Source: Nitrospina sp.
GTDB lineage: Bacteria; Nitrospinota; Nitrospinia; Nitrospinales; VA-1
Length of the DNA: 64,000 bases
Direction: 5' to 3'
Assembly (NCBI GenBank): GCA_018697205.1
Contig: JABHTG010000057.1
Location: 124,001 to 188,000 of the forward strand
Positions 2,960 to 23,490 of the stretch are shown here, piece by piece. How positions within the stretch are numbered: position 1 is the first letter of the stretch; each line of letters starts with the position of its first letter. The notes beneath the pieces were generated by a model, which saw nothing but the letters and a program-made list of their open reading frames with translations, was not told where the DNA came from and did not search any database. A program made the translations under genes and the position numbers.

Positions 2960-4510
2960 ATGGTTAAAGTTAACTCTAAAATTCAAAAAAATAATAAAAC
3001 AGTAGTGTTGGTTTCTCCTCCATCACGAATGATGAATCATTATCGTCCTCCACTAGCGTTAATGTATATTTCAGGATATTTGAAGCAACAAGGAATACAA
3101 ACTCAAATCGTTGACTCAATAATGGAGAGTCAAACAGTCCGAGGAGAATCATTCTTTTCAAATAAAAAAGGTTTTTTTAAAATTATCGAAGATCAAACTA
3201 TTCAACAAATATCAAAAATAGATACAGATATCATTGGTATAACTTGCTACACCCCAGAAGTAGACGAAGTTGAGCAACTTGCCCACAGAATCAAATCAAT
3301 CAAACCGAATGCCAAAATTGTAGCCGGGGGCATCCATCCGACATTATACCCAGATGATTTATTGGGCCCAAATTCTGACATTGACTTTGTAATATTTGGA
3401 GAAGGCGAAATTTCATTACACGAATTAGTAGTCGCAATTCGTTTAGGAAAAGACATACATAAGCTTAAAGGTGTCGGGTTCTATGATCGTTCTACTAGCA
3501 AAAAAGTAATCACTGAAAGGCAACTACTTGATTATGAGTTAGATTCTATTTCTTGCCCAGATTATGAAGGCATTGATATGAGCTACTACACTAATGCCTC
3601 CCCCTACGCTATTCGAGGGGTCTTCACGCGAAGTATGTACCTATCAGCCTCTCGTGGATGTCCTTCATCTTGTACTTTCTGTGTAGCCCCTGAACTCAGG
3701 GACTTTAATTTTGCCAGTGGAATTAAAAAGAATGCTGGGGTTCGCTTAAGAACACCCAAACACCTATTTGAGGAAGTCGCATTTTTAAAAGAAAAATATA
3801 AAATCGACTCGTTTTATTTTATTGATGATCTATTCACCTTGGATGAAGAGATGGTATCTGGCTTTTGTGAACTAATGATTAAAAATAAAATGAACTTAGT
3901 TTGGGGTTGCTCTTCAAAGGTCAATACGGTTGACTATAATTCTCTTAAACACATGAAGGCTGCTGGCTGCATCCAACTTGATTTTGGAGTCGAAAAAGCA
4001 TCGGACGAACAAATGCATCTTTTAAAAAAAGGTACAAAAGTCCGTGAAGTAAAGGAAACTTTTAAAAACTGTCATGAATTGGGTATTCGTGCCTTTGCTA
4101 ATATGTTAATCAATACGCCTGGTGAAACGGAGCAAGATCTTAAAGATGCTGTAGGTTTGCTCGAAGAAATCAAACCTAATATTGTATCAATTAATATTTT
4201 TACTCCATACCCTGGGACAGAGATTTTTTCTGATACTCAGGGACTCACTCGAGAAGAATATCCCTTGTTGATGGAAAACCCAGCAAAGTTAGCTGCAGAG
4301 CGACCTGACAAGTTTCGCTTCGCCAAACATAATATAGATTTAGGAGCTTTTGCTTCACAAGAAATGAAAAGGCACAATAAAGTCTATCCAAATATATCTA
4401 TATTTTTTAATCCAAAATATATACGTAGCCTTTGGCATTCACAAAGAAAACTAAATTACACCAAACAAACAAATATTTTAGTACAAGAGTTTATAAATCA
4501 AAAATTCTAA
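2960..4510 (+). CDS. B12-binding-domain radical SAM protein
   Basis: SRGCPSSCTFC (CxxxCxxC); VAGGIHPTLYPDDLL typical of the B12-binding domain of this family. Confidence 0.9.
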   Translation: MVKVNSKIQKNNKTVVLVSPPSRMMNHYRPPLALMYISGYLKQQGIQTQIVDSIMESQTVRGESFFSNKKGFFKIIEDQTIQQISKIDTDIIGITCYTPEVDEVEQLAHRIKSIKPNAKIVAGGIHPTLYPDDLLGPNSDIDFVIFGEGEISLHELVVAIRLGKDIHKLKGVGFYDRSTSKKVITERQLLDYELDSISCPDYEGIDMSYYTNASPYAIRGVFTRSMYLSASRGCPSSCTFCVAPELRDFNFASGIKKNAGVRLRTPKHLFEEVAFLKEKYKIDSFYFIDDLFTLDEEMVSGFCELMIKNKMNLVWGCSSKVNTVDYNSLKHMKAAGCIQLDFGVEKASDEQMHLLKKGTKVREVKETFKNCHELGIRAFANMLINTPGETEQDLKDAVGLLEEIKPNIVSINIFTPYPGTEIFSDTQGLTREEYPLLMENPAKLAAERPDKFRFAKHNIDLGAFASQEMKRHNKVYPNISIFFNPKYIRSLWHSQRKLNYTKQTNILVQEFINQKF

Positions 4511-4528
4511 CTCGCTGAATCGAGAAAC

Positions 4529-5452
4529 ATGCCTACAAATTGTCGGCTTTGTTCGAGCTCAAATACCAAACTGCTGTTCATTTCAAAAAACATGCATGGT
4601 CAGCATCTTTTGAGTAATGAAGAATTTAATGTTCTCGAATGTAAAAACTGCAAGGTTACATTCACTGATGTTGATGCGAATAGCGATTTCTACAATCACT
4701 ATTACCCAGAAAACTATTATGATAAGTTTCAAGGGAATAAACTAATAGAAGGTCTTCTTGGTTTATTGGAAAAACTTAGTTTTAAAAGAAAACTAGGCCT
4801 TATTTTAAGGCATAAACCAGAGGGTAACCGAGTCTTGGAGATTGGCTGTGCTCAAGGTAAATTTTTAAACGACTTGCCTTCCACCTTTAAAAAATTTGGT
4901 GTCGAAATTAATGCTAATGGTCGTCGGTATATTCAAGAACATTATCCAGAAATAACGGTTTATCAAGATGGTATCGAGAGTGAAAACTTTAGTGGTTGCT
5001 CTGCAAAATACGACATTATTCTAATGTGGCATGTGCTGGAGCACATAAAGGACCCATCTGCATTTCTCCAACAGCTTTCTTCACTTTTAAATAAAAATGG
5101 GGTCTTTATTTTCGAGGTCCCTAATAGAAATAGCCTTGGTTTTAGATTAACTCGTGAGAAATGGTTTCATCTTGATACCCCTAGGCATCTTTTTCATTAC
5201 AACCAAATTAGTATAAAACAACTGTTAAACCACCAAGGACTTAAAATTATTGGATATTCTGGCAATGCCGTCGACTACTGGCATGACTTCGCGACAAGTA
5301 TTCGCAAATGTTTCAGCACAAAAATCCCGATAATAAATAAGGTATTATATTTTATACTTTTCCCAATTGGGTTTACAATTCGGAGTTTGGTCTCATTAAT
5401 CTCAGCTCAAACAGCTGAGATTAATACCTATGTGGTTAAACATTCGTCATAA
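4529..5452 (+). CDS. Class I SAM-dependent methyltransferase with N-terminal zinc-binding Cys motif
   Basis: CRLCSS...CKNCKVTF at N-terminus; VLEIGCAQGKFL motif I; MWHVLEHIKDP. Confidence 0.85.
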   Translation: MPTNCRLCSSSNTKLLFISKNMHGQHLLSNEEFNVLECKNCKVTFTDVDANSDFYNHYYPENYYDKFQGNKLIEGLLGLLEKLSFKRKLGLILRHKPEGNRVLEIGCAQGKFLNDLPSTFKKFGVEINANGRRYIQEHYPEITVYQDGIESENFSGCSAKYDIILMWHVLEHIKDPSAFLQQLSSLLNKNGVFIFEVPNRNSLGFRLTREKWFHLDTPRHLFHYNQISIKQLLNHQGLKIIGYSGNAVDYWHDFATSIRKCFSTKIPIINKVLYFILFPIGFTIRSLVSLISAQTAEINTYVVKHSS

Positions 5453-5487
5453 AACAGTTATAGAATTTCTAATTAAAAGTTACGACT

Positions 5488-7005
5488 ATGATAAAAGAAA
5501 CTATTCTTCTCTATAATCCAAGTCCTGAACCTAAACGAAAGACGACTGACGTCCCATTATCACTACTTTGCGCGTCAAAAGTTCTTGATAAAGAAGGATA
5601 CAAAATAAAAATTGTGGCTGACAATTTATACGACAACCACATGGATATTATCAGTAAAACTGCTAAAAATAGCCGAGTTTTAGGGATTTCGTCCTTGACA
5701 GGTCATCAAATATTGGGAGGACTCGAAGCTTGCCGTGTTGCCAAACAAGCAAATAAAGATATAAAAATTATTTGGGGAGGATACCACCCATCTATTTTCC
5801 CAGCCCAGACATTAGAAAACCCCTATGTAGATATTGTTGTAAAAGGAAAAGGTGAAAAGGCATTCTACGAAGTTATTAAAAAGCTTGACGAAGGTGAGAG
5901 TTTTAATGATATGCCTGGAATCCATTGGAAGGAAGATGGCCAAATATTTTCCAATCCAGACAGACCCTTAGAGAAAATGGAGGGCTCACCTCAAATACCC
6001 TATCATTTAGTTGATGTTGAAAAATGCCTTTATCCAAGCGAGTATGGACAAAGAACAATCAGCTATGTTTCAAGCTATGGATGCCCTTATAAGTGCGGTT
6101 TTTGCTGCGAAGTTTCCGTTTATGACCAAAGATGGGTAGGCTTAGATGCAAAATCTGTTGTAGATGATTTTGAACGACTTGAAAAAGAATACAAAGTAGA
6201 CGCCATAGGCTTTTACGATAGTCTGTTTTTCACTAATATGAAACGCTCTAAAGCAATTTTTCGAGAAATGTTGGATAGAGGAGTTAAGGTTAGGTTAGGA
6301 AACCTAGATGGCAGGTCTAAACAATTAGCCGATGCAGACGATGAGTTGTGGGAGCTCATGCGAGAAACACGGACTTACAGCATATTCTGCGGAGCGGAAT
6401 CTGGCGATGATGAAACACTTGAGGCCATGACCAAGGAAATAGTGGTCGAAGATAATTATCGGTTCGCCGATAAGTGTCATAAATATGGAATAAAAGTTGT
6501 CTTCGGCTCGTTGGTAGGCTTGCCTCTCCCAAATCATTCTATCAAGGAACTAACTAAAAAAACTGGTGACCAGATTGAATCAAATATACAAATGTTTGAT
6601 ACAATCTTGTCCAAAGATACTCGCCATAGAGCTCAGATTTTTATTTACTGCCCCTACCCAGGAACTTCAATGTATGAAGATTCCATTCGCCTTGGCTTTA
6701 ACGAGCCTAAAAATTTAGTAGAATGGGGTAAAATTACCTACTTTGAAAGACCCGTTCCTTGGGTTAATAAAAATCAAGGTCGTATGGTTCCCATGATTTC
6801 GAATTACATATTTATGTTTTTGGATGCAGATACGATCGTTTGGGCGAAGGAAAAAATAAAAAATAAAATTTTTCGGGCCATTTTTATTTGTGTTTTCCAA
6901 TCTGCATCTTTTATCGCTAGATTACGATGGAAATACAAGTTTTTTCAAATCCCAATTGACTATAAATTGTTTACTCTTGCTAAAAGTGTTAATCGATGGA
7001 TTTAA
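5488..7005 (+). CDS. B12-binding-domain radical SAM protein
   Basis: SSYGCPYKCGFCC; IWGGYHPSIFPAQTL. Confidence 0.9.
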   Translation: MIKETILLYNPSPEPKRKTTDVPLSLLCASKVLDKEGYKIKIVADNLYDNHMDIISKTAKNSRVLGISSLTGHQILGGLEACRVAKQANKDIKIIWGGYHPSIFPAQTLENPYVDIVVKGKGEKAFYEVIKKLDEGESFNDMPGIHWKEDGQIFSNPDRPLEKMEGSPQIPYHLVDVEKCLYPSEYGQRTISYVSSYGCPYKCGFCCEVSVYDQRWVGLDAKSVVDDFERLEKEYKVDAIGFYDSLFFTNMKRSKAIFREMLDRGVKVRLGNLDGRSKQLADADDELWELMRETRTYSIFCGAESGDDETLEAMTKEIVVEDNYRFADKCHKYGIKVVFGSLVGLPLPNHSIKELTKKTGDQIESNIQMFDTILSKDTRHRAQIFIYCPYPGTSMYEDSIRLGFNEPKNLVEWGKITYFERPVPWVNKNQGRMVPMISNYIFMFLDADTIVWAKEKIKNKIFRAIFICVFQSASFIARLRWKYKFFQIPIDYKLFTLAKSVNRWI

Positions 7006-7080
7006 TATTTAACTTTACTATCTAAGTCGGTTTATCTTACATGAATGAAAAAAAACTATTACATTTAAAAGGAGTTTAAA

Positions 7081-8724
7081 ATGAAGGTCCTGTTGGTCTT
7101 TCCTTCTACCACAGTTTACGGTGACGACCCATCTGTACCTCCCGTCGTTCAACCTCTTGGGTTAGCATATCTTGCGGCGTATTTAGAAAAGGAAGGGCAT
7201 ACCGTCAAAGTTATTGATGGCCGAGGAGGTAGAGAAGACAAGACTCAAACTCCAACTTATACTAGATTTGGAATACCCGATGAAGAGATTTTCAAGCAAG
7301 TTAAAGATTTCAATCCTGCTGTTTTGGGTATAAGCAATATGTTTACAGCTTATTCTGGAGATCCTCACAGGATAGCTAAGGGTATAAAAAAAAGACATCC
7401 TAGACTTCCAATAATTTTTGGAGGATCACATCCCTCAGAATTTCCAGAGTTGGTCATGAAAGACGAAAATGTTGATATGGTTGTTAAAGGTGAAGGTGAA
7501 ATTACATTTACCGAGGTTTTAAAAAAAATACAAGACAAAGAATCTTTTTCTAATGTCCTTGGGCTGACTTACAGAGAGCGGGGAAATATTATCCAAAACT
7601 CACCTCGAGAACGAATGGCTGATATCGATTCTCTCCCTCTGCCCGCTCGCCACCTACTTCCAATGGAACATTACATTAACGAAAGTATGCGACATGATTT
7701 TATTATGCGTAAGCCCGCTGGTGCCATGGTAACTAGCCGTGGATGCCCTCAAAAATGTGTTTTCTGCACTGTTCGCGCGGTATGGGGTAGAGATTGGACA
7801 GGGCGACATCCCTCTAAAGTAGTGGATGAAATTGAATTCTTACAAGAAAAATATAACCTGCGTGAAGTTAGTTTTTTAGATGATGACCTAGGGCGAGACA
7901 TTCCAAGGCTTGGTGCTATATGTGATGAAATCATTCGCCGTAAAGTGGATATCAGGTGGACTACCCCAAATGGAGTAGCTCACTGGCTACTTAATGAAAG
8001 TCTACTTGATAAAATGAAAGCTTCTGGATGTTATCGACTTACCTTTGGAATAGAATCAGGCAACAAGGAAACCCGAAAATTTATTAAGAAAAAAGTTCCT
8101 CTTGAACAAGCTACAAGAATGATTTCACATGCAAACAAAATTGGGTTATGGACTATTTGTACTTTTATTCTTGGATTTCCTTATGAAAAAAAGGAACATA
8201 TGAGGGACTCAATTCGTTACGCAGTTGAAAGTGGAACCGATATGGCTGTATTTTATTTATTGTTACCTCATCCTACATCAGATGTATATTCGGTTTTCAA
8301 AGAAGAAGGTCTTCTGGACTTGGATCCAATTATGGATCCTACTACATACAAAGAGGCTGCAGATTTTGCCGAGATCGGGGAGGTACTTTCACAAAGAGGT
8401 GCTCAAACCAAGTATTGTTCGCCAGAAGAACTACAGGAAATGCTAAATGAAGCATACAAAACTTTTTTTAAAGCTCGATTAAAGAAATGGGCTATAAATC
8501 CTCTCCATTTCTTAAAAAAAGTTAATTCTTACGAAGATCTAAAATACACTCTAAAGGTTGGTAACGCTCTTGCAGCCCCAATCAGAAAATTTGTTACCGC
8601 TAAACAGGCACACATAAATATGCTGTGGGACAAATTTAATGAAAAAGATGCATTCTCCAAAGCCCGTATTTATAAGTCCCCCGAAGAAATAGCAGAAAAT
8701 AAGTCTGCAGCACCTCTTATATAA
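7081..8724 (+). CDS. B12-binding-domain radical SAM protein
   Basis: TSRGCPQKCVFCTVR; IFGGSHPSEFPELVM; AAGG-type start AAAAGGAG upstream. Confidence 0.9.
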   Translation: MKVLLVFPSTTVYGDDPSVPPVVQPLGLAYLAAYLEKEGHTVKVIDGRGGREDKTQTPTYTRFGIPDEEIFKQVKDFNPAVLGISNMFTAYSGDPHRIAKGIKKRHPRLPIIFGGSHPSEFPELVMKDENVDMVVKGEGEITFTEVLKKIQDKESFSNVLGLTYRERGNIIQNSPRERMADIDSLPLPARHLLPMEHYINESMRHDFIMRKPAGAMVTSRGCPQKCVFCTVRAVWGRDWTGRHPSKVVDEIEFLQEKYNLREVSFLDDDLGRDIPRLGAICDEIIRRKVDIRWTTPNGVAHWLLNESLLDKMKASGCYRLTFGIESGNKETRKFIKKKVPLEQATRMISHANKIGLWTICTFILGFPYEKKEHMRDSIRYAVESGTDMAVFYLLLPHPTSDVYSVFKEEGLLDLDPIMDPTTYKEAADFAEIGEVLSQRGAQTKYCSPEELQEMLNEAYKTFFKARLKKWAINPLHFLKKVNSYEDLKYTLKVGNALAAPIRKFVTAKQAHINMLWDKFNEKDAFSKARIYKSPEEIAENKSAAPLI

Positions 8725-8757: not shown

Positions 8758-11700
8758 CTACGCTGTTTTTTTATGCAAACCACCTTGCTTTAAGAAAAAA
8801 CAAAATAACAAAAACCAGCCCGAAAGGGTTACCAAAAAACCAATAACAAGAGAAGGTGGGGCATATTCCAGCCACACCAATTGTTTACCCTTCTCCAACT
8901 TTAATCCGATGAACCCTAAGTTTGCCTTATTTACAGGGAGTTCTTCCGATCCGGAGTAGGCCTTCCATCCATTCAAAATAGTCGTATTATAAACAAACCA
9001 ACAATGCTCATCTTGGCAGTCCACTTCGAAAACAGCCTTCGAAGCGATTATTTTTTTTATATCCACACGATTGTCGCCCTCAAAAACCTGAGGAGATTCC
9101 TGTTTATCTTTTAAACTAGATGATTCTATGATTATGGAACGCCATATATCTTTAGGAATACTTGACATGTGTTTTTCAAAATTCTTCGTAAGAACCTTTG
9201 ACCGAGGCCAAAACTTACCAAATGACAGAATCCCTTGATTAGCAAGGTTATCCTCAGTACGAATCATCTTGACCCATTTTGCAACATATGCTCGACCGTA
9301 AGATTGAGGATTAGTGAAAACCCGCATTTGGCGAATCTTAGGAAACTTTGAAGATGCATGATAAGATTGCGGAAATTTAAACTCAATAAAGCCTTGAGAG
9401 CGAAGATCCTCCAAAACTTTAGCTTTTTCCTCTGCTTCCATCTGGGCACCAAGATATATTCGAGGTAATGTAACATGATCGGCACCTGAAACATCTAAGA
9501 GTTTTCTTATAAAAGGGTTTGGCCGAAAAAAGTTAAGGAGCTTACCCTGCAAAAACATTAGATTGAAATGCCCCCTCATATTAGGATGAATTTCTGAATT
9601 AATTTGAGCTAGTAGCTCCTCATTATCATAAGCATGAAGATAAAGAGACCTGAGGTAAAAATTAATATCTTTCGAAGGATACGACTCCCCTGCCCCCCAT
9701 AAAGAAGGCCCGTACAACTCATGATTCTTTCCAAGGGGAAGTACTAATATCTCTCCTTGAATCAAGTTTGATAATACAAAAAAACTATACTCATCCGGTA
9801 AATAATATTGATAACTACTATGAGCAAGGTGTTGGATCGGTGCCACTCGGTGAGGAGCTAATGCTATTGTTGCTATTGTAAATGTGTTGCCGTCTTGAAG
9901 GTAAAAATTATCTATCGTCGGTGCTGCAACTTCGAAAAAAGCCAGTTTTTGATCTCCAAGACTAAGATATTTAAAGGCCTGCTCATACGTGCCTTGCGAA
10001 ATTTTTTCTTTTCTCCTTTGGTCATTTAAATATTTTTTAAACTCTTTAACTGGCCCATGACGCTGACGTAAAAGTTTCAATATTGACTGCTCATTTTTTT
10101 TATATTCCCTAATAGCTTTTGTACCTAACTTTTTATCCTTTAAATTAGAAGGTGCGACCTCCCAGTAATGTGCATTTAAAAAATTCATCTTGTGATGTCT
10201 CTCAGACTCAAATAGTCTTTCGAAATCCTCTACTCGTTTATCCAAATAATTGTAGCTGGCCACATCGTGTCGGTTCCCACGCAGAACAACTACCGCACTA
10301 CGAAAAGAATAAAAATTTCTACTCTTATCTAAGAGAATGACTGTTCCCTTTGTGAGATAGTCTCTAGCTGAAGGATAAAGCGTGTAGCATGAAAGTGCTC
10401 CCAAGATTATGATCAGGCCTAAAACTAACTTTTCTGAATTTATTAAGGGAAAGAAAGGTGAACCCATGGCATAAGACTTATTTTTAATCCTACCAGTGCA
10501 CCAAAAAAGAAGACTAAACAAAGAAAGAGTAGCCACAAAAAAACCAACATCCATGAGTATTTTATCTGGAATACTTTTAGGAAATAAGGGCGAAAAATAA
10601 ACTCCTATCAAAAGTAGCAGATAGGCTCCCGTAACTATGAAAAGAGTTTTTATGCTTTTTAGTTTAAGAAGATAATGTAAGCCAAGCATGGCAGCTACCA
10701 AGGCAAAAAAGAAAAAATACATACTCACTCGTAGATAATTATGAACTCTGAGAACTCCGGTAAACTCCATAAACTTAGAAAACCACCCCTGATCCCCCAT
10801 GGGAAAAGTTATCAAACAAAAAATTAGTCCGGCCAGAAAGAACGACTCACTAGATCTTATTTTAGAACCCTCGCTCGACTCCTTCGATAAATATTTTTGA
10901 TACAAAAAAATAAGAGTGCGACACAATAAAAAGAAAATCATAAATAATGAGAACTGTCCTGTATAAAAACCGATAACTGGCCCACCTAACGGGCTATACA
11001 AACCAGGAGCAAAGCTATAAAGATTTGCATCTTCGAATCGAAAGAATATAGAAGCGTAATGCTCAAGTGCCCCGCCCCACCAGAAGCCCATTGTGGATGA
11101 ATTGTCTATAACCAGATATTCCATTGATGCTATAGCTTCAATAAAAGGCACAAAGTAATAAGCCATTCCTATAAAAACAGCGACTGGGAATGTAACTACC
11201 TCCAAAACGAGCCGCTTGATGTTTGACCAGTGAAACCCTTGGTAAAATAGTTTGCCTGTAGCCATCCAACAAATATAAATAACCAGAAAGGAGAGCAACA
11301 GCGCAGTACATTCGAGGTTTACAAGCCAGACATGTTGAGATAAACTAGCGACCAGTCCAGCCAAGAATATCCACTCTAGACGACCTTTGGCATAAGCCAG
11401 GCTGACACACAACATGGCCCAGGGCAAAAAAGTGAATGGCACAATGTTTATAGGGTACTCATTGCCAAGATATGAAAGAAACGCAGAGTTGGTTAAAATG
11501 TAAGCAAACCCACCAAGAACTGAAGGAACAAAAGATAGCCTGAGCCCAAAACGAAGAAACAGGTAACATCCGAAAGACGAGAAAAGATAAAGAAAAAATA
11601 AACACCATTTTACCAAGTCGTATTTGGCGTAAACATCTGTTATTGGCGTATCTAGAATCAGGGCGACCAGCGAAAGTAGAGGACTGACCATAAAGTTACC

Positions 11701-12312
11701 CTGACTGTAACCACCTAGACGATAACTCTGAGAAAAATTACCTAAAAAATCATAGGCCTTAGCATTCTCCCATTGGTGCTCCAAATTAGTGAACATGTCG
11801 AGTCTGCCAGGAAGACTCAAAAAACTACGGTCGTAAAAGGGAGAAACCGTTTCGTAAATCCACGAAAACAAGATGAAAAACAGTAATAGAACGAGAATTG
11901 GTTCCTTGGTTCTAAGCGAGAAAAGGAACCAATTTTCCTTAATCTTCAAAAGTAAATAGCACCCGACTCCCACCACAAATAAAATAAATTGATAGAATAA
12001 CCCCAAACCAAAAACTGAAAGCGAGAAGGCAAAAAAGGGTAGCGTACAATGGAAGAAGTTTTTGCTTGTCAATGTTTGATTGTAATCAACCCATGAACCA
12101 ACTAATGCCAAGCCCAAGGCTAACGTTGCAAATAGCACTAGCGTTTGAACTACGGAGAGAGCAAATCCTGACCAAGGATAGAAATTAAGCAACTCTGGAG
12201 AAGCTATTGATAATTGCTGCGTTTTAAACCACACTCCGAACACTATAGAGGTAGCCAAAATAATAAGAAATGCCGCAATCAGATGACGTTGATAAAAATC
12301 TTTGGTTGTCAT
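8758..12312 (-). CDS. Large multi-pass membrane protein, YfhO-like
   Basis: 1184 aa with many TM segments; C-terminus LNGWKAYSGSEELPVNKANLGFIGLKLEKGKQLVWLEYAPPSLVIG resembles YfhO C-terminal domain. Confidence 0.75.
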   Translation of the reverse strand: MTTKDFYQRHLIAAFLIILATSIVFGVWFKTQQLSIASPELLNFYPWSGFALSVVQTLVLFATLALGLALVGSWVDYNQTLTSKNFFHCTLPFFAFSLSVFGLGLFYQFILFVVGVGCYLLLKIKENWFLFSLRTKEPILVLLLFFILFSWIYETVSPFYDRSFLSLPGRLDMFTNLEHQWENAKAYDFLGNFSQSYRLGGYSQGNFMVSPLLSLVALILDTPITDVYAKYDLVKWCLFFLYLFSSFGCYLFLRFGLRLSFVPSVLGGFAYILTNSAFLSYLGNEYPINIVPFTFLPWAMLCVSLAYAKGRLEWIFLAGLVASLSQHVWLVNLECTALLLSFLVIYICWMATGKLFYQGFHWSNIKRLVLEVVTFPVAVFIGMAYYFVPFIEAIASMEYLVIDNSSTMGFWWGGALEHYASIFFRFEDANLYSFAPGLYSPLGGPVIGFYTGQFSLFMIFFLLCRTLIFLYQKYLSKESSEGSKIRSSESFFLAGLIFCLITFPMGDQGWFSKFMEFTGVLRVHNYLRVSMYFFFFALVAAMLGLHYLLKLKSIKTLFIVTGAYLLLLIGVYFSPLFPKSIPDKILMDVGFFVATLSLFSLLFWCTGRIKNKSYAMGSPFFPLINSEKLVLGLIIILGALSCYTLYPSARDYLTKGTVILLDKSRNFYSFRSAVVVLRGNRHDVASYNYLDKRVEDFERLFESERHHKMNFLNAHYWEVAPSNLKDKKLGTKAIREYKKNEQSILKLLRQRHGPVKEFKKYLNDQRRKEKISQGTYEQAFKYLSLGDQKLAFFEVAAPTIDNFYLQDGNTFTIATIALAPHRVAPIQHLAHSSYQYYLPDEYSFFVLSNLIQGEILVLPLGKNHELYGPSLWGAGESYPSKDINFYLRSLYLHAYDNEELLAQINSEIHPNMRGHFNLMFLQGKLLNFFRPNPFIRKLLDVSGADHVTLPRIYLGAQMEAEEKAKVLEDLRSQGFIEFKFPQSYHASSKFPKIRQMRVFTNPQSYGRAYVAKWVKMIRTEDNLANQGILSFGKFWPRSKVLTKNFEKHMSSIPKDIWRSIIIESSSLKDKQESPQVFEGDNRVDIKKIIASKAVFEVDCQDEHCWFVYNTTILNGWKAYSGSEELPVNKANLGFIGLKLEKGKQLVWLEYAPPSLVIGFLVTLSGWFLLFCFFLKQGGLHKKTA

Positions 12313-13564: not shown

Positions 13565-14611
13565 ATGCTCCACTGGCGGATATCATCTTACTTAATTGGA
13601 TTATGTGCAAAAGCATCGATCACAAAACCTTGGGTTTTTAAAGGTTTCTCATATGTGATAGAACTTCCCTTTCTCAAGCTAATATACGAATACATTTACT
13701 TAAAAAAAATTCGAAAAACTCTTGCTCTTTATGAGTCTTCACCTGGATTCCAAGTTGCCCTCGAACCTTTAAACGTGTGCAACTTAGAATGCACCATGTG
13801 CCCTTATCCCAGTATGGATCGTGAAAAAAGTCAAATGCCCATGGATCTTTACAAAAAAATAGTCGATGAGATTGTAGCATTTGGGCATACCCGACTAAAC
13901 TTAACTCACTACAATGAGCCTTTTCTAGATAAAAACCTTTTCGAAAGAGTTCGTTATGCAAAACAAAAGGGAATGTTCGTTGGCTTCTTTTCAAATGCTA
14001 CAGTAATGGATTCTGAAAAAGCTGAAAACACGCTTGATGCTGGAGTCGACTGGGTAAACTTTAGTATTGATGGTGCAACCAAAGAATCTTTTGAAAAAAT
14101 ACGTATTGGGGCAAATTTTGAAGAAACAATCAGCAATATTTCTCATTTAATCAAACTTCGAAGAGAACGTAATAGCACAATACCCTTGATTAATATCCAC
14201 ACTACAATTTTATCGAAGGAAAATCTAGAGTCTTCAAACCAACTTAAAGAATTACTTTGCGGAGCTGACTCGTACACAATGGGTCTTGCCGATTCGCGAG
14301 GGGACCAGAAAGACTACAACTTCATGAAAACCTTTACCTCTAACACCAATAAATCCCGTCTTTATCCTTGCTCCATCCCATGGACAACTTTAACAGTTAT
14401 GAGCAATGGGAAAGTATGCATATGCTGTAGAGATCATGATGGAGAAGTAATTCTCGGTGACTTAAACAAGCAAACAATTACTGAAGTTTTAAATTCAGAA
14501 GAAATGCTAAAAGTGAAAAAGCTTCATTTGGAAGGACAAGGAGACAAAATAGATCTTTGTAAAAATTGCGACTCTCTATACCGAGCTAACCTTAGTTGGT
14601 GGGCCAATTAG
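13565..14611 (+). CDS. Radical SAM/SPASM domain protein
   Basis: NVCNLECTMCPYP; C-terminal SPASM-like CSIPWTTLTVMSNGKVCICCRDHDGEVILGDL...CKNCDSL. Confidence 0.9.
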   Translation: MLHWRISSYLIGLCAKASITKPWVFKGFSYVIELPFLKLIYEYIYLKKIRKTLALYESSPGFQVALEPLNVCNLECTMCPYPSMDREKSQMPMDLYKKIVDEIVAFGHTRLNLTHYNEPFLDKNLFERVRYAKQKGMFVGFFSNATVMDSEKAENTLDAGVDWVNFSIDGATKESFEKIRIGANFEETISNISHLIKLRRERNSTIPLINIHTTILSKENLESSNQLKELLCGADSYTMGLADSRGDQKDYNFMKTFTSNTNKSRLYPCSIPWTTLTVMSNGKVCICCRDHDGEVILGDLNKQTITEVLNSEEMLKVKKLHLEGQGDKIDLCKNCDSLYRANLSWWAN

Positions 14612-14663: not shown

Positions 14664-16454
14664 ATGAATACTAATTTTAACTTAATCATAAAACGAATAA
14701 TAAATAATGATTTCTTTTATCCGCTGGTGATGATCCTAGCTCTCTCTCTAGCTCTTTCAAAATATTATTCTGATGGTTCGTTAATTCTTGGAGGTGAAGG
14801 AAATACTGTCCTGAACTTCACAGAACATTTAAAGCTAACATCATATCAATGGTTTTCTATCTATGGTCAAGGGATGATTAATTTAGCTCCCTCAGGGACC
14901 GGAGTCAATATTCTCCTGTTAGCATTATTTGAAAATCTTACTAAAAGTACAGTTGCCACTAATTTTATACTTATTCTTTCATTATACTACTTACCTTTTT
15001 TAGGTATGTTTCTCGCCGCCAGGGAAATCAATCTCAATAACTTTTCAGCTTTCCTAATTGCATTATTTTATCTCATCAATCCCTCAACTCTGCAATACCT
15101 CACTAACCTTAACCAATGGAATGCATCAGTAGTGGCTTTAATGCCTTTTCTTTTCTGGATTATCCTAAAGTTTTACAAAGATAATCTTAAACTTTTTTTA
15201 TTTTATGGCACTACCACAGCAATATTCTCTTGTGCCTACTCAAATCAACCCCTGAATGCTATTGCCAACATATCATCTCTTATTTCACTTTTTATCATCT
15301 CTTTTCACCTTAATGGCAAGCTGATTTACTCTGAAATTTTAAAAAAATACATGCTACTTTTACTAGCATTTGTTCTTTTCAATTCCTGGTGGCTATTAAA
15401 TCTTTTTTACTCAGCCGTAGACGCCATAAAATTTTATCCTGAAGCCCAAGCACAATCCTGGTTATCTCAAGTCTCAAATAACACCGCCACCCCTTTATTT
15501 AAATGTCTTACTTTTACAATGTTAACCTACGATTATGGATATGATTTTATTGGCAACTTACATAACTCATTTCCTGGTCATATCATAAAATTGATTCCTA
15601 TAACTCTAGTCGTTCTGGTTTGTTTTTTTTCTAAAAAAATACGGAAGGTAAAAATCATCATTCCTGTTTTTTTTCTAGTATTAGTCGCTATGTTCTTGAC
15701 GAAAGGAGTAAGTCCACCATTCGGAGAAATTTATTTGTTTCTTTTTAAAAATATTCCACTTTTCAATATGTTTAAAACACCAACAGAGAAATTTGGGCTA
15801 CTATATATTTTTCTATTTACTCTTCTTCTGCTTTTCATTTTCCTAAACATTAAAGCCTTAAAAGAAAAAAATATTTTCCAGTTGATTTTTAGTGGTTATT
15901 TAATATTTTGTTTTACTCCAATCGCTACTGGAAATATTATCCCTGACCACAACATTGGACATTATGGAAAATCTGTTAGGAAATATGTCGAAAAGTCAGA
16001 GGAAACAAGTTTTAAAGCCACAATTAATCGGGAAAAGCTAAACTATAAAATAATGAGTCTCCCTGGAATGGGAAACTACCAAATTCTTATGAAGACTGGC
16101 CGTAAAAGTTACTACACAGGCTGGGATCCATTACTATGGACCAACAAGGGTTCTGTGCAGCCTGCTTTTAGTTCTCATATTACCGAATTTTATTGGCTTT
16201 TAGACAAAGCTCCGGTTAAAAAGCTATTTGGAATGCTTAACATTGGAAAACTTGTGGTCAATCCTAATTTGATCCCATGGTTTGGAAACGTAGGGTCGGG
16301 AAATCCTGATACTATTCGCGATCGATTAGAATTGCTTCCAGAAAAAAGATATGGGAATATTTCTGTCTTTAACAATTATAAAAATTTTCTACCTGTAGTT
16401 TATTCTCCCAAAAATATTTTCATTGTTCGGGACACCGTCCAAACCATTGACTAA
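14664..16454 (+). CDS. Multi-pass membrane protein (GT-C/YfhO-like)
   Basis: 596 aa, many TM segments; GGEGNTVLNFTEHLKLTSYQWFSIYGQG N-terminal loop typical of these polysaccharide-locus membrane proteins. Confidence 0.65.
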   Translation: MNTNFNLIIKRIINNDFFYPLVMILALSLALSKYYSDGSLILGGEGNTVLNFTEHLKLTSYQWFSIYGQGMINLAPSGTGVNILLLALFENLTKSTVATNFILILSLYYLPFLGMFLAAREINLNNFSAFLIALFYLINPSTLQYLTNLNQWNASVVALMPFLFWIILKFYKDNLKLFLFYGTTTAIFSCAYSNQPLNAIANISSLISLFIISFHLNGKLIYSEILKKYMLLLLAFVLFNSWWLLNLFYSAVDAIKFYPEAQAQSWLSQVSNNTATPLFKCLTFTMLTYDYGYDFIGNLHNSFPGHIIKLIPITLVVLVCFFSKKIRKVKIIIPVFFLVLVAMFLTKGVSPPFGEIYLFLFKNIPLFNMFKTPTEKFGLLYIFLFTLLLLFIFLNIKALKEKNIFQLIFSGYLIFCFTPIATGNIIPDHNIGHYGKSVRKYVEKSEETSFKATINREKLNYKIMSLPGMGNYQILMKTGRKSYYTGWDPLLWTNKGSVQPAFSSHITEFYWLLDKAPVKKLFGMLNIGKLVVNPNLIPWFGNVGSGNPDTIRDRLELLPEKRYGNISVFNNYKNFLPVVYSPKNIFIVRDTVQTID

Positions 16455-16502: not shown

Positions 16503-17657
16503 TTGCAATTTAAGAGACTAGACTTAGTATCACTTAAAATGGATTCGTTTGACAGAACCTCTTTCACTCGCGATGCTCTTTTGTATAGCAAGAACTCCAT
16601 GCTCTTTTTTTATGACTTCAAGGGTATTCATCTAGTTCATCAACCCGATCATGTGAAGTGGTTCCCTAAAGTCATCAAATTTCCTTGGCTAAAAAACCGT
16701 ACAATATTAGACCTGCTACTACCCTTTCTATGGATTATTTTTTTCTCAACATTTCTACTTCTATCCGCAATTATTTGTATCGTATACCGCCCAAAGATTT
16801 GCTTAACTGAGAACACTTGGGTTGGTGCTGTTTTTGGAATAGCGCGGAAAATTGGTCTCTGCAAAATATTCATATATTGCTCTGGAGACTGGCTGGCTAA
16901 CCAAGGCAACAAAGGATATCTTAGCCGACTAGCCAACAACCATTTATTTGTCTATATGGATTATATTGCTTCTGTAACTAGTGATCTCACAAATAGTTAT
17001 TCAAAACGTTGTAATGAAGCCAGAGAACTTCATTGGGGGAAAAAAGTTTCAAAGAATATACACCATAGATACCCACCCCCCATAGAAATATTCTCTGACG
17101 CCGCATCAGCCAAAAGAATACATATTTGTTTTCTGGGTCAGGTATTATTAGATTCTGGTTTAGATTTAATCCTACCCTTATTACCTGAACTACATAGAGA
17201 AAATGGTACGAAACTAAAAATCATTGGCCCTGACTCAACAGCTAAACGAATTCAAATCGAAAAAACAATTAAAAATAAAAATTTAGAAAGCCTTACTGAG
17301 CTTTATGGTTATCTACCTGAAAATGAAATAAAAAAAGCCATGAGTGATTGCTTCTGCGGAATAAACCTAATCACAACAGCGGAAAGTTACTCTTCTTTCG
17401 CAGTCCCCGGTAAATTCATTTATTATCTTCAGATGCAGATTCCGGTACTCACAACTAAAAACAATGGCCTTGTTGAAGTAATTGAAGAAAACAAACTAGG
17501 CATTATAATTGAGCCAAACCCAAGATTGATCTTATCATCCATATACAAACTATATAATGATCAAGAAGTATACAAAATTAATATCTCAAAATATGCGAAA
17601 AAACACTCCTATCTCTCTATAAAAGACTATTTAAAAATTATCCAAGAATCTAAATAG
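16503..17657 (+). CDS. Glycosyltransferase family 4-like
   Basis: IHICFLGQVLLDSGLDLILPLLPEL, LKIIGPD, FAVPGKFIYYLQMQIPVLTTKNNGL; TTG start. Confidence 0.75.
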   Translation: MQFKRLDLVSLKMDSFDRTSFTRDALLYSKNSMLFFYDFKGIHLVHQPDHVKWFPKVIKFPWLKNRTILDLLLPFLWIIFFSTFLLLSAIICIVYRPKICLTENTWVGAVFGIARKIGLCKIFIYCSGDWLANQGNKGYLSRLANNHLFVYMDYIASVTSDLTNSYSKRCNEARELHWGKKVSKNIHHRYPPPIEIFSDAASAKRIHICFLGQVLLDSGLDLILPLLPELHRENGTKLKIIGPDSTAKRIQIEKTIKNKNLESLTELYGYLPENEIKKAMSDCFCGINLITTAESYSSFAVPGKFIYYLQMQIPVLTTKNNGLVEVIEENKLGIIIEPNPRLILSSIYKLYNDQEVYKINISKYAKKHSYLSIKDYLKIIQESK

Positions 17658-17997: not shown

Positions 17998-19425
17998 ATG
18001 TGGAGAAGTGATGCTAACCTTATTCCTAAAAACTTGGATCTGCTTCTAGTTCAACCTAGCCTCGATTTCACCAAAGATCTTAATGCTTTGATGGCCAGAA
18101 AAGTTGAACAGGATATAATAATATCTAATTGCCCTCCTCCAGGAATCGGTTATTTACTGGCAATAGCTAAAAAAAACGGTATTAAGGCAAAGTTTATTGA
18201 TATGGTGACTAGCAAAGTTCACGCCGAGGAACTTTATCATTTTATAAATATATCGAAGCCTACCTTAGTAGGTTTTGGAGCACTTACAATCCAAATCAAA
18301 CATGCAGGCGTCATAGCGAAAGAAATTAAAAATCGATTTCCTAAGACTTTAGTTTGCGCAGGAGGAATGCACCCCACTGCAATGCCAAAGGAAACTCTGG
18401 ATGAATTTTCTGCTTTAGACTTTATAATTAGTGGAGAAGGAGAGCTGGCTCTCTTAAAAATATTCGATCATCTAGATAAGAATCTTTCTCTCTCATCTAT
18501 TCCTGGAGTAGCTACGCGAGAAAACCCCGAACCTGGCGGCGAACAGATAAAAGATCTTGATAGCCTACCCTTTCCTGCATGGGACGAAATGGACCTTAGT
18601 TTATTCCATGGAATTTTTCCTCATAGGACCAAATTAGAACTCCCAATGTGGACAAGTAGAGGGTGCCCATTCCCCTGCACATTCTGCGCACGCCCACTGG
18701 GTAGAGACAGAGTAAATAGGTCTGTAGCATCGGTGATGAGTGAAATCGAGCGAAATATTGAAGAATTTGGATGTGAATCTATCGCTTTCATAGATGAAAC
18801 TTTTATTGTTAATAAAAAGTGGAGCTCAGAACTTTTTAAGGCAATGATAAAGAGAGGTTTAAACAAAAAAATTAATTGGTCATGCGAAACCCATGTAAAT
18901 ATTAGTTCACCTGAGCTTTTTGAACTTATGAAAGAGTCTGGCTGCTATTACGTTTTTTTCGGATTAGAAAATGCTGATGACTCAATGTTAAGAGATAGCG
19001 GTAAAATGTCAAAAACTGCAACCGTTAAAAATGCAGTAAAGTGGGCTAAAGATGCTGGTATTGTGGTAGCAGGAAGCTTCATTATTGGGCTACCTGGAGA
19101 AACTGACGAGACAGTTATGCATTCAATAAAACTAGCTCAAGAGCTTGGACTATATTCAGTAACCTTCCCTATAGCAATCCCCTTTCCTGGCACTCACCTT
19201 AGACAACAGGCTCTTAATGGCGAGCATGGTCTGCGCCTATTAACAGATGATTGGAATGACTACGACAAACAATACCCTGGTGTAATGGAGAGTGTTAGCA
19301 TGCCCATTGGAAGAAGATTAGAACTCCAAAAAATTGCTTATGAATTAAATCCAAAAAATAAAATTGAGGATTATATTAAAAATTTGTCAATGAGACAGCA
19401 GACTGAGACCGCAGGTTGCATTTGA
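17998..19425 (+). CDS. B12-binding-domain radical SAM protein
   Basis: TSRGCPFPCTFCARPLG; VCAGGMHPTAMPKETL. Confidence 0.9.
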   Translation: MWRSDANLIPKNLDLLLVQPSLDFTKDLNALMARKVEQDIIISNCPPPGIGYLLAIAKKNGIKAKFIDMVTSKVHAEELYHFINISKPTLVGFGALTIQIKHAGVIAKEIKNRFPKTLVCAGGMHPTAMPKETLDEFSALDFIISGEGELALLKIFDHLDKNLSLSSIPGVATRENPEPGGEQIKDLDSLPFPAWDEMDLSLFHGIFPHRTKLELPMWTSRGCPFPCTFCARPLGRDRVNRSVASVMSEIERNIEEFGCESIAFIDETFIVNKKWSSELFKAMIKRGLNKKINWSCETHVNISSPELFELMKESGCYYVFFGLENADDSMLRDSGKMSKTATVKNAVKWAKDAGIVVAGSFIIGLPGETDETVMHSIKLAQELGLYSVTFPIAIPFPGTHLRQQALNGEHGLRLLTDDWNDYDKQYPGVMESVSMPIGRRLELQKIAYELNPKNKIEDYIKNLSMRQQTETAGCI

Positions 19426-19749
19426 CTCAAAAATTTCACTTCTTTTAAAATTTAGATCAAACACACTTTTAAAAAAGAAGTACTTTGTGTTTTGTTCTAT
19501 ACTTAATTAATACTTTTCTTCATGTTTATATAGCTGGGTAGTTAATCACACATACTTAAAAGCTTGATTAAGTGATAATCTTTTTTGTTTACAAAGGTAT
19601 TTTATCGCCCCCCTGTAAATGGGTCTCTCGCCCATGTCAGTTCTCGCCTAATTGAGCGATTATTTGATTAGCGATTTGAAATATCGCATTTTCGAAATAC
19701 AAACAACTGCGCTTGGCCTTTTTCCCAGGTTTCAAAACAGGAGTAATTT

Positions 19750-21234
19750 ATGGCAAGAAATATTGACCTTTTGATAATCAGCCCTGGCAACAATAGAATT
19801 ATTTATCAGGGTTTGGCTAAAGAGTATTCTGCTATAGAACCTCCAGTATGGGCCGGCCTGTTAGCTAAGTTTGCTCGTAATCAAGGGTATGGCACCTATT
19901 TAATGGACCAAGAAGCTTTAGGCTTAAGTTCCGAAAAAATTGCTCAAAATACTCACGATTTAAATCCAAGACTTGTCGCCATAGTCGTTTATGGACAGCA
20001 ACCATCTGCATCTACTCAGAACATGACTATGGCTGAAGAAATTTGCTCGAAAATTCATTCTCAGTCTCCACTTATAAAAATCCTATTGGTCGGTGGACAC
20101 GTTTCGGCATTACCCGAAAAAACACTCAACGAATGTGATGCTGATTTCGTTTGCCAGGGTGAAGGCCCTCATACACTTCAGGCTCTACTTCAATTAGATG
20201 ATTTAAAAAACTCAAACCAATTAAATAAAGTTCCGGGACTTTGGTATCGGGAAAATGGGGAACCGGTTTTTAGCCAACCCTCACCCGTAATCCCTAAAGA
20301 GGAACTTTCTGTATCCTTAAATGGTGTTGCTTGGGACATGCTACCTATGGATGCTTATCGAGCCCACAATTGGCATTGTTTCGACCATATTAATGAAAGA
20401 AGCCCTTATGCCTCCATCTACACAAGTCTAGGATGCCCCTTTAAATGCTCTTTTTGTTGCATTAATGCTCCCTTTGGCAAACCCAGCATAAGATACTGGG
20501 ACCCAAATTTTGTTATAACAGAACTAGATATTCTCGCTAACAAATATGGCGTAAAAAATATTAAGATAGCTGATGAGATGTTTGTCTTACAAGAAGACCA
20601 TGTCATCCGATTATGTGATCTTATCATTGAAAGAGGATATAACTTTAATTTCTGGGCCTACGCACGAGTCGATACCGTCAAAGATAATTTTTTAAAAAAA
20701 TTAAAACAAGCCGGCTTTAACTGGCTATCTTTGGGGATTGAATCCAAAAGTAAGCACGTTCGAGACGGAACAGATAAAGGTCATTATGATGAAAAAGATA
20801 TTGTAGAAACTGTCCGCAAAGTTCAAGATGCCGGCATTTATATAATTGCTAATTATATATTTGGGTTACCTGATGATAATTATGAATCTATGAATGAAAC
20901 ATTGATCCTTTCGAAAGAATTAAATTGTGAATGGGCAAATTTTTATTCCGGAATGGCATATCCTGGATCAAAACTTTACGATATAGCACTGCAAAAGGGA
21001 TGGGACCTTCCAAAAAAATGGCACGACTTTTCCCAGCACTCATACGAGCAACTTCCCCTTGCCACAGATCACTTGACAGCAGGACAAGTTTTGAGCTTTC
21101 GCGATAATGCGTGGCAAGAATATTTTACCAACCCAACATATACTACTATGGTAAAAACAAAATTTGGGGAAGAAGTACTCGATCATATTAATAAGTTGTC
21201 CTTACATAAACTCAAGAGAAAATATTCCGCTTAA
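19750..21234 (+). CDS. B12-binding-domain radical SAM protein
   Basis: TSLGCPFKCSFCCINAP; LLVGGHVSALPEKTL; AGGAG ribosome-binding site upstream. Confidence 0.9.
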   Translation: MARNIDLLIISPGNNRIIYQGLAKEYSAIEPPVWAGLLAKFARNQGYGTYLMDQEALGLSSEKIAQNTHDLNPRLVAIVVYGQQPSASTQNMTMAEEICSKIHSQSPLIKILLVGGHVSALPEKTLNECDADFVCQGEGPHTLQALLQLDDLKNSNQLNKVPGLWYRENGEPVFSQPSPVIPKEELSVSLNGVAWDMLPMDAYRAHNWHCFDHINERSPYASIYTSLGCPFKCSFCCINAPFGKPSIRYWDPNFVITELDILANKYGVKNIKIADEMFVLQEDHVIRLCDLIIERGYNFNFWAYARVDTVKDNFLKKLKQAGFNWLSLGIESKSKHVRDGTDKGHYDEKDIVETVRKVQDAGIYIIANYIFGLPDDNYESMNETLILSKELNCEWANFYSGMAYPGSKLYDIALQKGWDLPKKWHDFSQHSYEQLPLATDHLTAGQVLSFRDNAWQEYFTNPTYTTMVKTKFGEEVLDHINKLSLHKLKRKYSA

Positions 21235-21385
21235 AAAAAAGTATAAACCACCGATGATACGATTCTTTAAAACTATAAATTATTTAGGATTTCAAGACCC
21301 CAATGTTGAGTTAAAGCGTTTGGTGGCCGAACCCGTTAAATAAATAGGTATATACTCTTCAACAAAAAATATTACTGGAGAACTT

Positions 21386-22384
21386 TTGATGGGTAAGGTA
21401 AGTATTGTTGTTGCGACTAGAAATAATGAAGCCATCATTAAAAAGTGTCTAGACCATATTTATGCTCAAAAATTCAAAGATTTTACTTGTTATGTTGTAG
21501 ATGATGGGTCGACTGACCAAACATTAAAAATTATTAAACAAGAATACCCAAAAACAAAGATCATTGAATGCAAAGAATCACTGGGGCCATCACACAACAG
21601 AAATCTAGCCCTTAAAGATTCTAGTGATGAGTTCTTTGCTTTTGTTGATAGTGATGCCTTTATTGATAAGTGCTGGTTAGAAAAAGCAATCACAAAAATG
21701 GAGACTGATAAAACCATTGGCCTTATTGGCGGAAAAGTTTATGACTATCATACAAAAAAAATTCAATCTATTGGAGGTCAAACCCATTTTGGAGGGACCG
21801 TCTGGCTTGAGGACTGCCCTCTTAATGATGAACGCGCTAAGATCAAAGAAAAGTTTTGCCACTGGCTTCCAAGCTCAACTTTCATGATAAGAGCTCATGT
21901 TGCTAAAGATATTGGCGGGTTTGACTCCGACTATGGTTACTTGTACGAGGATATTGATATTTCTTGGCGGGTTTGGTTGGCGGGACATACAGTTCTATAT
22001 TTTTCCGCTCTTGAATCGGTTCATATGATGTCCGTAACAGCTTCGTCATCATATTCCGACTCAAAAAGACAGTTTATGTCTAAGAGAAATAAAGCGGTAA
22101 CATTTTTAAAAAATTTGGAGTGGATAACCTTAATAAGGTTTTTCCCTGTTTTTTTTGCAGTTTTGTTGGTTGAACTCATTATATTAAAACCTAAAGGTGC
22201 CATCCTCATGGGAAACATTGACCCCTTTTTAAATTTAAAAAAAATTTTACAAAAACGCAAAGAGATAAAAAAATTTAGAAAGATTCGTGACAAAGAAATA
22301 CTTCCCTTTTTTGTTACAGATCATTGGAAAGTAATCAAACGGTGTATAGGGGATAACTATGCCTTCCTTCCGAGGAGAAACTGA
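21386..22384 (+). CDS. Glycosyltransferase family 2
   Basis: VSIVVATRNNEAIIKKCLDHIYAQ, VDDGSTDQTL, FVDSDAFI. Confidence 0.9.
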   Translation: MMGKVSIVVATRNNEAIIKKCLDHIYAQKFKDFTCYVVDDGSTDQTLKIIKQEYPKTKIIECKESLGPSHNRNLALKDSSDEFFAFVDSDAFIDKCWLEKAITKMETDKTIGLIGGKVYDYHTKKIQSIGGQTHFGGTVWLEDCPLNDERAKIKEKFCHWLPSSTFMIRAHVAKDIGGFDSDYGYLYEDIDISWRVWLAGHTVLYFSALESVHMMSVTASSSYSDSKRQFMSKRNKAVTFLKNLEWITLIRFFPVFFAVLLVELIILKPKGAILMGNIDPFLNLKKILQKRKEIKKFRKIRDKEILPFFVTDHWKVIKRCIGDNYAFLPRRN

Positions 22385-23490
22385 TGAATTTAAGTAACCT
22401 AGCGGTCCTCAAATCGGTTCTGGGAAATATGATTAAAAGAGATTATTTGGGCTTCACTCTATTTGTCACTACAATATGCAACCTCAGGTGCCAATACTGC
22501 TTCAATCTTGAAAACTTGGGCAAAGGAACAGACGATTTGACTTTTGAGGAAATTGAAAAACTTTCCAATTACCTACCCCCAATGAATGGAGTTTTATACT
22601 CTGGGGGAGAACCCTTGATTCGGCAGGATATTGTAGAAATATCGAATCTTTTCATACAAAAAAACCACTTCAAAGGCTTCATTATTCCCACTAATGCCGT
22701 GGATATGGAAAACACTCTTTTAAAGATAGAAGCTATTTCAAATTTAAACCCTACTCCAGAAATCGTTGCCTGCTGCGGGTTGGATGTGTTTGAGGATACC
22801 CATGACAGGCTAAGAGGTAAAGGTACCTACAAAAAAGTGACCGAAACGATCCAAGAGTTGGTCAAATTAAAGCAGTCAAAAAAAAATATTTCCATCCTAA
22901 TAAATAGCGTTCTTGGGAAAAGCTCAATCCCTCAACTAAATGATTTTATTCGCTTTGCAAGAACTTTGAATCCAGATTTGCATAGCCTAGAGGTTGTAAG
23001 GGATGAAAAAATTCAAATCTATGACGGAATTTTTCATGGTAATAATAAAGCCCTAAATACGGAAACTATATTTCAAACAATGAATTCTGATGATTTTGAT
23101 ATTGTAAAACAAGCTCGGCTTTTAATTGACGAACTTTATCGCAAGGAAGACATACTTTACGGGCTTTATAAGCTACGTAGTAATATGATGACTGATTTAC
23201 AAAGAGATACGCTACTATATAACAAAAAATGGCCTGCCGCATGCATGGCAGGCCGAACTGGATTTGTTGTTCAAAGCAATGGCGATATCTCGGTTTGCGA
23301 AAATCTTTCCCCTTTGGGAAATTTAAGAAAGGATGGTTTTGACCCGATAAAAATAATTAAAGACCGAGGTGGTGCTCAGTTCCAGGGCATCCAAAATCAT
23401 GCCTGTGACTGCGCACATTACGTTTATGTCAAAGACATGTTAGAGCATAATTTTCCAGGAGCGTTGGCGAAGTATCTAACACAAAAATAA
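22384..23490 (+). CDS. Radical SAM/SPASM-type protein
   Basis: TTICNLRCQYCFNLE; GVLYSGGEPLIR; C-terminal CMAGRTGFVVQSNGDISVCENLSPLGNL...CDC; start overlaps stop of GT2 (TGATG). Confidence 0.88.
   Translation: MNLSNLAVLKSVLGNMIKRDYLGFTLFVTTICNLRCQYCFNLENLGKGTDDLTFEEIEKLSNYLPPMNGVLYSGGEPLIRQDIVEISNLFIQKNHFKGFIIPTNAVDMENTLLKIEAISNLNPTPEIVACCGLDVFEDTHDRLRGKGTYKKVTETIQELVKLKQSKKNISILINSVLGKSSIPQLNDFIRFARTLNPDLHSLEVVRDEKIQIYDGIFHGNNKALNTETIFQTMNSDDFDIVKQARLLIDELYRKEDILYGLYKLRSNMMTDLQRDTLLYNKKWPAACMAGRTGFVVQSNGDISVCENLSPLGNLRKDGFDPIKIIKDRGGAQFQGIQNHACDCAHYVYVKDMLEHNFPGALAKYLTQK

Follow-up and report, generated by a model that had tools for sequence, protein, structure and literature searches.

A battery of B12-binding radical-SAM enzymes in a variable surface-glycan locus of an uncultured Nitrospinaceae bacterium

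We analyzed a window of 64,000 nucleotides of Nitrospina sp. DNA, corresponding to positions 124,001-188,000 of a 225-kb contig (JABHTG010000057.1, here C56) in a draft genome bin (G000; 2.48 Mb, 148 contigs, 85% complete, 5.8% contaminated). The source is an uncultured member of the Nitrospinota and a relative of the marine nitrite-oxidizer Nitrospina. In the window, five B12-binding radical S-adenosylmethionine (SAM) enzymes and two further radical-SAM proteins are interleaved with glycosyltransferase (GT) genes. We conclude with high confidence that the genes form a variable locus for surface polysaccharide (O-antigen/capsule-like) in an uncultured member of the Nitrospinaceae. The glycan or its precursors are the probable substrates of the radical enzymes, and it is nearly as probable that the locus elaborates unusual sugars by means of this battery. 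The system would be a variable surface-glycan locus with radical tailoring, and its sugars may bear carbon branches or rearrangements beyond the reach of ordinary sugar chemistry.

Radical-SAM enzymes of the locus

Among all open reading frames (ORFs) of at least 120 amino acids in the window, the motif CxxxCxxC is restricted to seven, starting at 2960, 5488, 7081, 13565, 17998, 19750 and 22384 (genes are cited by start position; Table 1), the same seven named in the original prediction, which was made from the DNA letters. Five of them (2960, 5488, 7081, 17998, 19750) are full-length and exceed the Pfam gathering scores for both an N-terminal B12-binding domain (PF02310; 56-78 bits, cut-off 32.1) and Radical_SAM (PF04055; 45-88 bits, cut-off 29.5), which confirms their earlier designation as B12-binding type. 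The GGxHxT/S-type motif ascribed to all five is present in its exact form, GGxHP[T/S], in 2960, 5488, 7081 and 17998, and 19750 has VGGHVS. Regarding the two SPASM-like C-termini, 13565 is a clear case (Radical_SAM 67 bits; SPASM, PF13186, 48.9 bits), and 22384 (Radical_SAM 55 bits) stays slightly below the SPASM cut-off (20.4 against 21.5 bits). A further radical-SAM protein adjoins glycosyltransferases elsewhere on the contig (L007:8806-10329, i.e., G000:C56:120806-122329); it has CMFGKCTFC, a CX4CX2C-type spacing, and scores 48.5 bits for Pfam Radical_SAM without a B12-binding match.

Judged by their sequences, the five proteins certainly belong to the B12-binding radical-SAM superfamily. 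They share only 24-30% pairwise identity and occupy scattered positions in a 76-row tree, and therefore appear to be separate recruits and not tandem copies; a recent tandem duplication is ruled out. No NCBIfam cut-off was reached by any of them. The HpnJ, BchE and HpnR equivalog models gave 57-163 bits (cut-offs 481-650), the AprD4 family model NF033070 47-91 bits (cut-off 500) and TIGR04295 B12_rSAM_oligo 41-85 bits (cut-off 400), and the cut-offs of the P-methylase, ApyD, RiPP and other models were likewise far higher than the scores obtained. The five are new subfamilies within a known superfamily. An assignment to known housekeeping families, the outcome that the original prediction had named as contradicting it, was accordingly not obtained, and a hopanoid/bacteriochlorophyll assignment is ruled out.

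The same scores bear on two alternative explanations. If the enzymes served lipid (hopanoid/ladderane-like) or tetrapyrrole metabolism as mere neighbors of the glycan genes, one would point to HpnJ, BchE and rSAM_ladder_B12 being among the top-scoring models; but their 78-163 bits, against cut-offs of 360-578, are what any superfamily member would give, the cluster showed no gene for lipid or tetrapyrrole biosynthesis, and a module described below is co-inherited with glycosyltransferases. We regard this as highly improbable. Alternatively, the locus might be a cluster for a ribosomally synthesized and post-translationally modified peptide (RiPP) or another small-molecule secondary metabolite, with incidental glycosyltransferases and two SPASM proteins maturing a peptide. 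Many SPASM radical-SAM and some B12-radical-SAM proteins do mature peptides, and weak scores to RiPP maturase models were obtained. However, these are well under the cut-offs; the annotated genes contain no non-ribosomal peptide synthetase or polyketide synthase domain, RiPP recognition element or peptidase (no search was aimed at precursor peptides), and what one finds instead is a flippase and genes for sugar nucleotides at a glycan hot spot, which leaves this alternative improbable.

The nearest sequences of solved structure to the five proteins are AprD4, MgmA (9ccb), TokK, CysS and TsrM, AprD4 being the best match of 17998 (E 5e-21) and 19750 (E 1e-15). An AlphaFold2 (AF2) model of 7081 (pLDDT 73.5, pTM 0.76) had only B12-domain radical-SAM enzymes among its top 17 PDB matches (MgmA, TsrM, AprD4, CysS, TokK, OxsB), of which the first five fit about equally well (AprD4: TM 0.72 by target length). 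This places 7081 in the class without distinguishing among the reactions of these enzymes. Our analysis favors methylation of sugars at unactivated carbons as the most likely chemistry; dehydration or rearrangement is possible, notably for 17998 and 19750. C-methylation as the main chemistry falls a little short of probable. The enzymes could instead be mainly AprD4-type radical dehydratases or epimerases that make deoxysugars and do not C-methylate. The AprD4 matches of 17998, 19750 and the 7081 fold agree with this, as does a pathway that already makes deoxysugars; on the other hand, the Pfam B12-binding cut-off is exceeded in every one of the five, the GGxHP[ST] loop is intact in four, and none comes near the AprD4 model cut-off. 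We consider this alternative unlikely.

Surface-glycan genes and a predicted branched sugar

The cluster begins left of the window (at approx. 80 kb on contig C56) and stops near window position 37.9 kb. Its right edge is formed by a DUF218 gene and tRNA-Glu/tRNA-Lys. In one congener (G006), rmlB/A/D-like and DegT-type genes follow the same tRNA-Lys/tRNA-Glu pair, and in another (G004) a GT2 gene follows the DUF218 gene; these family names were read from the sequence and not searched, and the content of both relatives is visible up to the contig ends. Since different glycan genes lie beyond a shared boundary, it resembles a hot spot for exchangeable glycan genes. Together, the glycosyltransferases, the flippase, the genes for sugar nucleotides and a conserved boundary that borders other content in relatives mark a variable surface-glycan locus.

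Pfam confirms the GT4 and GT2 enzymes and the methyltransferase among the neighbors. The YfhO-like character originally suggested for the membrane proteins 8758 and 14664 was not found, as neither had a relevant Pfam match even at E<=5, and they are better called polytopic membrane proteins. A PDB search with a 14664 profile gave no match, and its AF2 model, built from two sequences only, reached a pLDDT of 32.

In the sugar-nucleotide genes, 27769 is ColD: SHHI aligns with the ColD active site, with His replacing the pyridoxal phosphate-binding Lys. Within this deoxysugar gene set lies a pair resembling pyruvate dehydrogenase (PDH) E1-alpha and E1-beta. PDH-E1-like pairs attach two-carbon branches to sugars of avilamycin (AviB1/B2) and, by proposal, of paulomycin (Pau11/12); in yersiniose the branch is made by YerE (PMC4425429). 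From a 4,6-dehydratase, a 3-dehydratase, a thiamine diphosphate (ThDP)-dependent C2 transfer and a reductase, a 4-C-branched (two-carbon) 3,6-dideoxy sugar is therefore predicted; given ColD and the HddA/HddC-like genes, it is probably GDP-linked. This gene content would independently back a carbon-branched sugar in the polymer. Of the non-standard, C-methylated or rearranged product first envisaged, the link to a surface glycan and a predicted carbon-branched sugar have stood, and a lipid or polyketide-like product is unsupported.

Table 1. Features of the window and of a second operon (SDR, short-chain dehydrogenase/reductase; NDP, nucleoside diphosphate).
Feature	Position	Strand	Basis
Exported/membrane protein, no Pfam family	388..1506	+	42% ortholog beside 1571 counterpart in G001:C318
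GT4 glycosyltransferase	1571..2749	+	PF00534 92.6 bits; 60% ortholog in G001:C318
B12-binding radical-SAM enzyme 1	2960..4510	+	GGIHPT, CPSSCTFC; 86% copies at G000:C75, G001:C12
SAM methyltransferase (Methyltransf_23)	4529..5452	+	Pfam
B12-binding radical-SAM enzyme 2	5488..7005	+	GGYHPS, CPYKCGFC; Pfam
B12-binding radical-SAM enzyme 3, conserved-module core	7081..8724	+	GGSHPS, CPQKCVFC; Pfam, AF2 fold
Large polytopic membrane protein, extracytoplasmic C-terminal part	8758..12312	-	no family match; GT-C-like by eye only
Membrane protein	12477..13106	-	no family match
Radical-SAM/SPASM enzyme	13565..14611	+	PF04055, PF13186
Polytopic membrane protein, conserved module	14664..16454	+	no Pfam/PDB match; G000 and G001 only
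GT4 glycosyltransferase, conserved module	16503..17657	+	Pfam; 64% at G000:C75, 39% at G001:C318
B12-binding radical-SAM enzyme 4	17998..19425	+	GGMHPT, CPFPCTFC; Pfam
B12-binding radical-SAM enzyme 5	19750..21234	+	VGGHVS, CPFKCSFC; Pfam
GT2 glycosyltransferase	21386..22384	+	PF00535 91 bits
Radical-SAM enzyme, SPASM-like C-terminus	22384..23490	+	PF04055; sub-threshold SPASM
GHMP sugar kinase, HddA-like	23605..24603	+	NF049969 145 bits, under cut-off 600
GDP-mannose/NDP-sugar 4,6-dehydratase-like SDR	24709..25698	+	PF16363 205 bits; under NCBIfam cut-offs
PDH E1-alpha-like ThDP enzyme subunit	25735..26691	+	PF00676; TIGR03182 246 bits, cut-off 394
PDH E1-beta-like ThDP enzyme subunit	26688..27737	+	PF02779/PF02780; NF006667 303 of 321 bits; PDH E1-beta structures
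ColD, GDP-4-keto-6-deoxy-D-mannose 3-dehydratase	27769..28950	+	438 bits, E 3e-130 to E. coli ColD/WbdK
Sugar-1-phosphate guanylyltransferase, HddC-like	28997..29698	+	NF049965 206 bits, cut-off 300
NDP-sugar epimerase/reductase (SDR)	29728..30669	+	PF01370
DUF2079 membrane protein	30819..32393	+	Pfam
Large exported protein, C-terminal membrane segments	32439..36575	+	no family match
Wzx-type polysaccharide flippase	36618..37874	+	PF13440/PF01943
tRNA-Glu and tRNA-Lys, conserved backbone bounding the variable glycan locus	38953..39134	-	comparison with congeners
Second operon (G000:C25)	L060:7053-14078		equivalents L040, L061, L062, L065

Co-inheritance and genome-wide density

The sister bin used for comparison (G001) is the Nitrospinaceae metagenome-assembled genome (MAG) JAPYPM01 of the same genus, with backbone DNA 77% identical to that of G000. 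A module of 7081, 14664 and 16503 was found at four loci in two Nitrospinaceae species, in varied arrangement. G001:C318 keeps the order 388-1571-[radical-SAM/SPASM]-7081-14664-16503 at 42, 60, (20), 72, 44 and 39% identity. On another contig of the source bin (G000:C75) the arrangement differs, with copies of 2960 and 7081 at 86%, 14664 at 70% and 16503 at 64%, and G001:C108 carries 14664 plus the ends of 7081 and 16503. Of 60 genomes searched, 58 lack 14664; the two that carry it, G000 and G001, also hold every 7081 homolog of >36% identity. A contig scan for the 7081 family with two peptide patterns returned the sister bin and otherwise remote relatives at 22-29% identity; as far as these two patterns tell, the family looks confined to this lineage. 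Since 14664 occurs only where 7081 orthologs do and the module recurs, the enzymes and glycosyltransferases are co-inherited within the two genomes, as the original prediction required. Between G000:C75 (L009) and G001:C12 (L033), 7 kb are 97.3% identical, compared with 77% for the backbone, which reflects either recent transfer of a glycan/radical-SAM module or cross-binning.

B12-binding radical-SAM genes also accompany SPASM proteins and glycosyltransferases elsewhere. A second operon in the source bin has the order RmlB-like (337 bits), WbqC, radical-SAM/SPASM, B12-radical-SAM, ArnC/PgfS-like GT2, radical-SAM/SPASM and methyltransferase. Its core, consisting of the B12-radical-SAM gene, an intervening ORF (GT2 in G000) and a 13565-like radical-SAM/SPASM gene, recurs in G001, G026, G027 and G033, and the extra upstream radical-SAM/SPASM gene in G027 and G033. 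The operon is independent of the window locus and phylum-wide. In an Acidobacteria MAG, a B12-radical-SAM gene is likewise followed by one for a 13565-like SPASM protein. Such recurrence makes an accidental arrangement in the window less likely. Several unrelated loci (L017, L024, L038, L039) pair a B12-radical-SAM gene with an adjacent gene for a methyltransferase related to 4529.

The source bin has 55 B12-binding and 93 radical-SAM matches, compared with 6-34 B12-binding matches in same-genus bins (34 in G001) and 4-23 in other relatives. Counted as first-look candidates it has 62 in 2.5 Mb, a higher density than any other of the 77 Nitrospinota genomes; the largest absolute count, 85 B12-binding candidates in 5.6 Mb, belongs to a member of another Nitrospinota family (G059), possibly an independent expansion. 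Contig C56 holds 12 of the matches, and ten lie within 70 kb where 1.6 would be expected at this genome's own rate, so the clustering is not due to chance even in an unusually rich genome. Of all 55, 20 are located <=5 kb from GT genes, whereas at most 8.3 were expected (p about 1e-4, treating matches as independent). A four-gene radical-SAM cassette, three B12-type and one SPASM-size (L006:1655-8353 = G000:C56:101655-108353), has a second copy on contig C15 (L010:2583-9309) at 77% identity, and no counterpart in seven congeners.

Could the genome-wide excess be largely a binning artefact of mixed strains? The contamination estimate, the unusual identity of C75 to G001:C12 and the duplication of C56:101.6-108.3 kb by C15 would fit, and some of the 55 matches may be foreign. 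Nevertheless, 12 matches come from the single 225-kb contig that contains the window, the sister bin is itself rich, and C15 is without a counterpart in that bin. We therefore consider an artefact rather unlikely.

Proposed function and comparison with known systems

We propose that the GT4 and GT2 enzymes assemble the glycan on a membrane lipid carrier, and that the polytopic membrane proteins and the flippase would modify and export it. With a 5'-deoxyadenosyl radical, the five B12-radical-SAM enzymes would activate C-H bonds of sugars carried as nucleotide- or lipid-linked intermediates and would most likely add methyl groups from methylcobalamin. The AprD4-like pair 17998/19750 possibly dehydrates or rearranges intermediates, and the two radical-SAM/SPASM enzymes may perform further radical oxidation or epimerization. 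We infer the substrate, the order of the steps and every B12-radical-SAM reaction. More tentatively, the surface polysaccharide may be diversified by a modular, exchangeable set of distinct B12-radical enzymes (about ten at this one locus, possibly up to 50 genome-wide) that add carbon-carbon branches at unactivated sugar positions, in a genus that appears to scavenge B12.

Several observations weigh against this proposal. Neither sequence nor the 7081 fold search tells methylases apart from AprD4-type enzymes, and methylation is indistinguishable from dehydration or rearrangement because the homology to characterized enzymes is remote. The four module loci are drawn from just two draft bins. 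Close copies were found for 2960 and 7081 only; the sequences compared contained no close relative of 5488, 17998 or 19750, and no genome-wide search was made for them. Outside C56, the excess of GT proximity is modest (12 of 43 matches within 5 kb). Finally, CobS (PF02654) is missing in all eight genus bins (G000-G007), one of them 95% complete, whereas half of the genomes in the family carry it; the genus has probably lost de novo B12 synthesis, so that the enzymes would run on salvaged B12. No cobalamin riboswitch was detected near the locus at Rfam gathering scores.

If the proposal is true, uncultured bacteria that are abundant would produce surface sugars with branched chains that escape standard glycan prediction, and scarce vitamin B12 would be tied to cell-surface identity. 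On the more tentative reading, radical chemistry would do for antigen variation what O-acetylation and glycosylation do elsewhere. Nothing on point about B12-radical-SAM batteries in O-antigen or surface-polysaccharide loci, or with WbqC or Nitrospina, was found in the literature searched, outside of which most subscription journals lie. Cobalamin-dependent radical-SAM enzymes have been described as a largely untapped reservoir whose uncharacterized members far outnumber the characterized ones (PMC8992657).

Among known systems, MgmA (the glutamine C-methylase of methyl-coenzyme M reductase), TsrM, CysS and TokK share the B12-binding and radical-SAM architecture and fold with the window enzymes, but align with the 7081 model at 15-20% identity and act on proteins or small molecules. 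TIGR04295 is a hypothetical family whose name ties it to oligosaccharide loci; the window enzymes score far under its cut-off. In the colitose O-antigen pathway, ColD is common to both systems, but here it stands with E1-alpha/beta genes and no simple colitose pathway is evident. The AviB1/AviB2, Pau11/12 and YerE pathways use ThDP to attach a two-carbon branch to a 4-keto sugar, as predicted for the window, which has an E1-alpha/beta pair like AviB1/B2; in the window this pair is combined with ColD, would act on a predicted GDP-sugar and lies in a surface-glycan locus. AprD4, the radical-SAM 1,2-diol dehydratase of apramycin (PDB 6fd2), acts on a sugar and is the nearest solved relative of 17998 and 19750, although the family model excludes the window enzymes. 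Together with GenK and GenD1 it provides the precedents for B12-radical-SAM chemistry on sugars (PMC5461906). GenK and GenD1 methylate C6' and C4'' of a pseudotrisaccharide in gentamicin biosynthesis and, as we propose for the window, act on sugars in a glycoside pathway (PMC5461906); their product is an antibiotic small molecule and not a surface polymer, and no close homology was seen (orthology was not tested). The sugar-active enzymes cited all come from antibiotics, whereas the window locus brings five divergent enzymes together and, as a glycan locus, offers a concrete substrate class.

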